49,235 bases of DNA from a bacterium (GTDB taxonomy: Bacteria; Fidelibacterota; UBA2242): positions 1 to 49,235 of the forward strand of contig JAHJGX010000018.1 in the NCBI GenBank assembly GCA_018824205.1, given 5' to 3'. A program made the translations under genes and the position numbers. Below, piece after piece: positions 22,810-49,235 of this stretch. The stretch's first letter is position 1; the number at the start of each line of letters is the position of its first letter. The notes under the pieces were generated by a model. That model was not told where the DNA came from. It was given only the letters and a program-made list of their open reading frames with translations, and did no database searches.

Positions 22810-22947
22810 ATATATCAATTATTTAGCTGTATGGCAAATAATATTTTATAAAAATACTTAGTCGCAAAAATGTCAGATTTTAATTTCTTTTCACAGCAGG
22901 ATTACGTTATTGTCATTTAATATCACATCTCTAAAGTGAAATTAAAA

Positions 22948-23100
22948 ACATTAACCACTCAATTTATTGGGTGGTTTTGATGCTTCCTATAACTCAAACC
23001 GAATTAATTCGGTAAATCTCCCGACTAAAGTCAGGACGAAAGGCGGAAGTCATTTTACCCCATCGAATAAATTCGATGGTTAATATTTTTCTGGAGCTGC
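22948..23100. repeat. Multi-hairpin repeat element, copy A
   Basis: aaacattaacc leader; hairpins aaccactcaa-ttta-ttgggtggtt (22953-22976), accgaattaattcggt (22998-23013), cccgac-taaa-gtcagg (~23020-23035), ccatcgaat-aa-attcgatgg (23060-23079); ends tctggagctgc. Confidence 0.75.
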
Positions 23101-46749: not shown

Positions 46750-47918
<1,169 letters not shown>

Positions 47919-47922
<4 letters not shown>

Positions 47923-48788
47923 GCATTCTTATTGATGAAAATACACGGGTCATTGTCCAGGGAATCACCGGGAAAGAGGGGGCGTTTCATACGGCCCAGA
48001 TGCTTGAATACGGAACTAAGGTTGTTGGTGGAGTTACTCCGGGAAAAGGAGGTCAAAAATCCGAACACGGTTTGCCGATATTCAACTCTGTGAAGGAAGC
48101 AGTCATTAAGACAGGAGCTAACGCAAGTGTTGTATTTGTACCGCCCCGTTTTGCCGCAGATGCAATCCTGGAATCCGTGGATGCGGAGCTGGATCTTGTC
48201 GTCTGTATCTCCGAGGGCATTCCGACCGAAGATATGGTTAAGGTCAATTATATTTTAAAGCAATCTAAGACCCGCCTGATCGGGCCTAATTGTCCGGGGA
48301 TTATCTCGCCGGGAAAATCTAAAATCGGCATTATGCCCGGATTTATTCATCAGAGAGGCTCAATCGGCATTATTTCCAGAAGCGGAACCCTGACCTACGA
48401 AGCGGTCCACCAGGTTACTCAACTGGGTCTGGGTCAATCGACCTGTATCGGGATTGGTGGTGATCCGATCATTGGCTGTACATTTCTGGATTTATTGCCG
48501 CTGTTTGAAAAAGACGCTGAAACCGAAGCCGTGATAATGATCGGTGAAATCGGTGGAACTGCCGAGGAGGAAGCGGCTGAGTACATTCAGGCCCATTTTT
48601 CAAAACCGGTAGTTGCATTTATCGCAGGAGTCACAGCGCCTCCGGGTCGCCGGATGGGGCACGCCGGGGCGATCATTGCCGGCGGCAAAGGAACCGCCCA
48701 GGAAAAAATCGAAGTATTACGGAATGCCGGAATCACCGTAACACTAAACCCGGCAGAAATCGGGAAAGCCCTCACTTCTGTTTTATAG
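47919..48788 (+). CDS. sucD: Succinyl-CoA synthetase alpha subunit
   Basis: [67 protein letters not shown] (His motif). Confidence 0.96.
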
Positions 48789-48940
48789 TCGTATATAAAT
48801 ATTAATTGAGGCGGATGAATTTCTAAAATTCACCCTTCCAAAGCTTATTTTTCTTTGGATATTTAATTATACAAGGATAAACGCCATAGCAATGCAATAC
48901 CCTATTTGCCATATACCATCCAATAAATTGCCCCCCAAGG

Positions 48941-49235
48941 GGACTGGAGTGGACAACATTTGGAATGATATGTCGTGAATAAAAACTCAAAAACATTAAC
49001 CGCCGGATTTATCCGGTGGAGTGGAAATCCCTTTCTGTCACATACCGACTAAAGTCGGTGCTTTGGGTTTGTGACACAGTACCACTCATTAAAATGCCTG
49101 CCTGGTCGTCAGACAGGAGTGGTTAACCTTTGGAGACGATATTTTTTATGATCTATGATTAGAAACGTTAACCGCTGGCTTTTCCGCAGGTCACAGGGGA
49201 CTCCGATTTATCGGAGAACTCCCGGGGGAGCTGCC
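48941..49235. repeat. Multi-hairpin repeat array, copies B and C (runs off window)
   Basis: Units offset by ~170-172 bp: ggagtgg(ac/tt)aac..tttgga at 48946 and 49116; aaac(a/g)ttaacc at 48991 and 49163. Hairpins ccgccgga-ttta-tccggtgg (49000-49019), accgac-taaa-gtcggt (49044-49059), tgtcaca/tgtgaca (49036/49070), accactc/gagtggt (49081/49117), ctccga-ttta-tcggag (49201-49216); ends ggagctgcc. Confidence 0.75.

Follow-up and report, generated by a model that had tools for sequence, protein, structure and literature searches.

The window, that is, the whole stretch of 49,235 nucleotides that was analysed, corresponds to contig C172 in a Candidatus Neomarinimicrobiota MAG of 3.89 Mb and 275 contigs. 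Its last 320 bases, which follow sucC and sucD, are filled by a hairpin array (Table 1). An earlier note on this DNA had begun the array at 48941 and described two units about 171 bp apart; that spacing is borne out by direct repeats offset by 170 bp (48942-48964 / 49112-49134) and by 172 bp (48991-49010 / 49163-49182), and the start is moved to 48916, where hairpin B1 begins. Covariance model R1 matches B1 with 76.5 bits, and folding of the array as single-stranded DNA gave z = -4.2, a fold that no shuffle out of 200 equalled.

Table 1. Positions of genes and hairpin features in the window.
Feature	Position	Strand	Description and basis
Second copy, left end	22944-22974	+	Guide AAAAACATTAA and hairpin C (CCACTCAATTTATTGGGTGG); R1 match
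Second copy, hairpin D	22998-23013	+	ACCGAATTAATTCGGT; fold
Second copy, hairpin A	23020-23035	+	CCCGACTAAAGTCAGG, imperfect
Second copy, right end	23060-23090	+	Hairpin B (CCATCGAATAAATTCGATGG) and inverted guide TTAATATTTTT; R1 match
sucC	46750-47922		Upstream of sucD
sucD (succinyl-CoA ligase alpha)	47919-48788	+	Host gene upstream of the array; Pfam CoA_binding and Ligase_CoA
Hairpin B1 (element right end)	48916-48952	+	CCATCC..GGAGTGG with nested CCCC..GGGG palindrome; sequence
First junction spacer	48953-48999	+	Element right tail and next left tail; ends in guide AAACATTAA
Hairpin C1 (left end)	49000-49019	+	CCGCCGGA-TTTA-TCCGGTGG, 8-bp stem; guide TTAA at foot
Inner hairpin	49036-49076	+	Clamp TGTCACA/TGTGACA around ACCGAC-TAAA-GTCGGT (49044-49059); replaces D/A in its element copy; DNA fold
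Hairpin B2 (right end)	49082-49122	+	CCACTCATTAAAATG..AGTGG; nested palindrome CCTGCCTGG..CAGACAGG; fold
Second junction spacer	49123-49171	+	TTAACCTTTGGAG..AGAAACGTTAA
Hairpin C2	49172-49235	+	5' arm CCGCTGGC at 49172-49179; loop enlarged by nested insert

The first hairpin of the second unit, previously taken for degenerate, is a C hairpin whose loop has taken up other palindromes, and the CTCCGATTTATCGGAG sequence (49201-49216) that had been read as the second hairpin of that unit is part of this insert. The 3' arm of C2, GCCGGTGG, is missing because the contig stops at 49235, inside the outer stem; C2 is intact, with this arm, on contig C156 of the same genome. The two contigs share a 119-bp end, which makes their adjacency plausible. 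The last ten codons of sucD and the downstream spacer recur after the C156 array (L016:363-391, G000:C156), and this recurring tail is closer to that of G003 (87%), a genome of the same genus in which sucD is present without an array, than to the spacer behind sucD in the window. Because this tail is repeated beyond the C156 array, the sucD site does not serve as a clean comparison of empty and filled states. Hairpin arrays also occupy the 3' spacer of sucD in genomes of two other genera (L151 in G011 and L146 in G013), the one in G011 belonging to another stem family, as though elements had landed at the end of sucD more than once.

The composition of the repeat unit is apparent from solitary copies, which occur in the window at 22944-23090, elsewhere in the same genome (L123-L125) and in genomes G009 and G015 (L130-L134). 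Four hairpins follow one another in the order C-D-A-B, the outer hairpins C and B enclosing the shorter D and A, and the unit spans about 150 bp between its two guides. Hairpins C and B are 20 nt long, with an 8-bp stem, a TTTA or TTCA loop (TAAA or TGAA on the other strand) and, at the outer foot, AAAC(A/G)TTAA, in which the guide TAR points outward; D and A have the same loops. The inverted hairpin pair with outward 5' guides that characterizes a REPIN is found in the solitary copies (22944-23090; L123-L134). A unit B-spacer-C, our first working definition, was rejected because solitary copies show C-D-A-B; the unit boundaries of the earlier note are likewise shifted, and its conserved leader is the junction between two units. 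Model R1 spans this B-spacer-C junction and also detects solo ends. From the foot of B to the foot of C, tandem arrays keep a constant distance of 51-53 nt while the middle varies, and a constant combined length of right tail and left tail would explain this. The 22.9-kb copy folds with z = -3.8 and is missing from the same spacer in four same-genus genomes (G001-G004), the insertion being longer than the hairpin core; in some element subfamilies, conserved tails of about 65 nt are found.

Palindromic inserts starting C(C)TGT.. are present in at least three genomes, always just 5' of a AATTTATT-type core, in the guide-side arm of a hairpin. They were seen in the window at 48930-48946 and 49097-49117 and at loci L039, L040, L049, L055, L081, L089 and L091, and perhaps form another family of repeats, nested within the first one.

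Variation of the stems with pairing kept, as had been noticed from the two units in the window, extends across genomes. Over 50 places in 12 genomes, counted on one strand each for 16 stem pairs, 95.0% of cells are paired, two-sided changes are seen in 14 of the 16 pairs, and 115 cells are changed on both sides, compared with 37 on average and at most 54 in the shuffles; the alignment, being fitted to the model, is biased towards structure, and much of this bias is controlled by the shuffles and by slides, since sliding the partner by one column abolishes the signal. Such covariation, together with the strong fold, might suggest a structured non-coding or cis-regulatory RNA array after sucD that is selected for its RNA fold, a possibility the earlier note had raised, and three terminator-like matches in 48700-49235 versus 0.7 expected are compatible with it. 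However, no Rfam match was found, the units are found beside numerous unrelated genes as well as around a transposase, the covariance matches lie on both strands, the unit being nearly palindromic, and the same-genus G003 lacks the array behind its sucD. Furthermore, G-T wobbles make up 25 of about 690 cells and are not commoner than mismatches, unlike the case for RNA genes, a low share that would fit a DNA hairpin better than an RNA hairpin. Overall, selection for an RNA fold is a distinctly improbable reading of the array.

Further copies in the genome, which the earlier note had anticipated, are plentiful: the array stretch gives 15 blastn matches and R1 gives 54 matches (both strands counted), including the copy at 22944-23090. 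The genome has about 22 element copies, dispersed over about 20 contigs. None of the 22 sites checked in this genome overlaps an ORF of at least 100 aa. Among 61 genomes searched, R1 matches occur in 12 and none in the other 49, and the element is common in its lineage. Tandem hairpins with GTTAAC-like boxes could also be seen as an integron-type attC array, in line with the recombination array proposed in the earlier note, and the genome does encode an IntI-type integrase (G000:C153:978-1922, L210; 466 bits, above the NCBIfam cut-off). However, neither window array nor the vicinity of intI contains a complementary RYYYAAC/GTTRRRY box pair, there are no cassette ORFs, and the copies are scattered over about 20 contigs, so that the likelihood of an integron is close to nil.

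The search for a cognate Y1 transposase, which the earlier note had proposed as a check, was successful. Seven Y1_Tnp genes are present in the genome, and one intact tnpA (G000:C166:381-833, 151 aa) has the element hairpins on both sides, in the order C-D-tnpA-A-B, a finding that supports the suggestion of a REP/BIME-like non-autonomous element. Close homologues in the same arrangement occur in G011 and G009 (87% identical each) and in G006 (67%), where locus L044 is a solitary C-D-tnpA-A-B with unrelated flanks; element repeats thus flank the Y1 gene, as in a REPtron, at C166, L042, L043 and L044. On contig C39, tnpA is cut to its first 26 codons and A-B follows directly. The six other Y1_Tnp genes of the genome (C98, C93, C212, C96, C198 and C273) have different flanking repeats, for example ACCTCCGGGAGG- or AACCTTCGGAAGGTT-like ones and ACACGAACA..TGTTCGTGT hairpins, and no flanking hairpins with a TTYA-type loop were found at them.

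The closest named relatives of the C166 TnpA are from Candidatus Neomarinimicrobiota MAGs. This protein has matches to Pfam Y1_Tnp and, by sequence, to structures of IS608 TnpA (PDB); among the NCBIfam models, it exceeds the cut-off of the one for IS200/IS605 transposases and does not exceed that of REP_Tyr_transpos. An H-x-H and a Tyr are invariant in an alignment of 15 TnpA relatives; the HuH residues are NHVH in the C166 TnpA, with D, E or N in relatives, and its Tyr motif is YIKNQDKHH, the Y..NP motif of TnpAREP/RAYT being absent from this protein. Members of subclass 1.2 of TnpAY1 have about 148-150 aa, Y...Q..HH, HuH residues DH[IV]H, a conserved C-terminal extension and low copy number, and are mostly found in Cyanobacteria and Bacteroidetes; they are reported to lack REPs and, in general, IS200-type ends as well (Quentin et al. 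2018; PMC6006769). The C166 TnpA resembles them in length, Y...Q..HH, C-terminal extension and low copy number, and by its motif (YIKNQ..HH) appears to fit subclass 1.2; it differs from the subclass as published in being flanked by hairpins and in belonging to Neomarinimicrobiota, and at the HuH residues this copy has NHVH where DH[IV]H is listed.

These matches to the IS200/IS605 model and to IS608 TnpA, along with subterminal hairpins at the ends and a HUH and Tyr transposase, might suggest an ordinary IS200/IS605 insertion sequence of subclass 1.1 with decayed copies, rather than anything REPIN-like. However, one intact tnpA stands against about 20 gene-less sites, and YIKNQ..HH with a C-terminal extension is a feature set of subclass 1.2 (PMC6006769), which leaves an ordinary insertion sequence unlikely. 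The element shares with IS608 and other IS200/IS605 members hairpin ends and a homologous transposase with HUH and a single Tyr, but differs from IS608 in that gene-less copies outnumber the gene and in that each end has two hairpins.

The hairpin pattern is also seen at related TnpA genes. At 17 Neomarinimicrobiota TnpA loci, 32-100% identical and picked as those most similar to the query, TTYA-type hairpins (stem of at least 8) occur on at least one side in all 17 and on both sides in 13; of the hairpin loops with a stem of at least 7, 54 of 58 are TTYA or its complement, and the guide is TAA or TAG in 41 of 50, one locus (L109) having GTAG. The stem sequences are wholly different between loci. 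In control flanks of other genes, any hairpin was found in 7 of 66 segments. More distant TnpA loci (L110-L122) lack the full hairpin pattern, and in the Saprospiraceae group it is patchy (4 of 22 readable loci). Plasmid TnpA relatives were considered for comparison and proved too distant to help; in a Persicobacter plasmid copy (L177), hairpins of 8 bp with a TAG guide are present, but their loops differ.

Overall, we consider the array to be, very probably, a tandem series of one REPIN/MITE-like non-autonomous element that would be moved in trans by a Y1 (HUH) TnpA. As in the REPINs or REPs of Proteobacteria and their RAYT (TnpAREP) proteins, there is an inverted pair of hairpins whose 5' foot carries a short guide (PMC3116915, PMC6006769, PMC8266576), dispersal outside genes, tandem clustering and the same repeats around a single-copy Y1 gene. 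Unlike REPIN/RAYT systems, the element has four hairpins, free stems and a loop fixed as TTYA; its guide is TAA/TAG instead of the canonical GT[AG]G, and its TnpA is of the IS200-like subclass 1.2 type (Y...Q..HH) rather than a RAYT. The TAR guide in place of GT[AG]G, the fixed TTYA loop and the free stems are new here. The gene-less copies look like two joined ends of the tnpA-bearing element, and may derive from loss of tnpA. For family f1, element matches occur in four of four genera with a TnpA more than 60% identical and in none of three genera without, in what is a small sample; G013 and G015 have 33-34 element matches and no TnpA above 41% identity, these MAGs possibly being incomplete.

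A mechanism can be proposed by analogy with IS608 and TnpAREP (PMC6006769, PMC8266576), in which hairpins would be recognised as single-stranded DNA and the cut sites set by the guide. The outer hairpins would fold on the single-stranded template during replication, and TnpA would recognise them by the TAR guide, the TTYA loop and a stem of 8 bp, whatever its sequence. It would cut beyond C and B at set distances and, as with IS608, rejoin the ends via single-strand circles. The TnpAREP of Marinomonas needs T, T and A at REP loop positions 1, 2 and 4, with any base at position 3 (PMC8266576), a requirement that, by analogy, fits TTYA here.

More broadly, an IS200-like TnpAY1 lineage of the subclass 1.2 type may run a REPIN-like system apart from the GT[AG]G REP/RAYT ones, in which a TAR guide and an invariant TTYA loop are combined with free stems. 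Such a system would extend across Neomarinimicrobiota, with a patchy occurrence in other groups, and would explain orphan REP-like palindromes such as that of Caldithrix; we see this wider proposal as evenly poised between right and wrong. The known REP/REPIN elements mostly go with GT[AG]G guides and RAYT proteins, and here, in a marine bacterium, hairpins flank a TnpA that by its motif fits a subclass reported without REPs. If the proposal is true, REPIN-like systems arose or diversified outside RAYTs, and subclass 1.2 TnpA proteins gain a likely substrate. The REP-like 18-mer of Caldithrix abyssi, aAACCGTTgaAACGGTTt, had been reported as an isolated repeat that lacks a transposase (PMC5317091); the very same 18-mer is found next to TnpA genes at G039:C15 and G015:C494, as an inner-type hairpin, and few exact copies occur among the 61 genomes searched. 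The possible link between this repeat and the present elements is a lead only.

Finally, it should be noted that the tnpA leader GTCGGTAAACAAGGAG is found in identical form before a nitroreductase gene (PF00881) at L020:2413-2458 and L043:3293-3338, where the left end of the element seems to supply the ribosome-binding site of that gene in two genomes.
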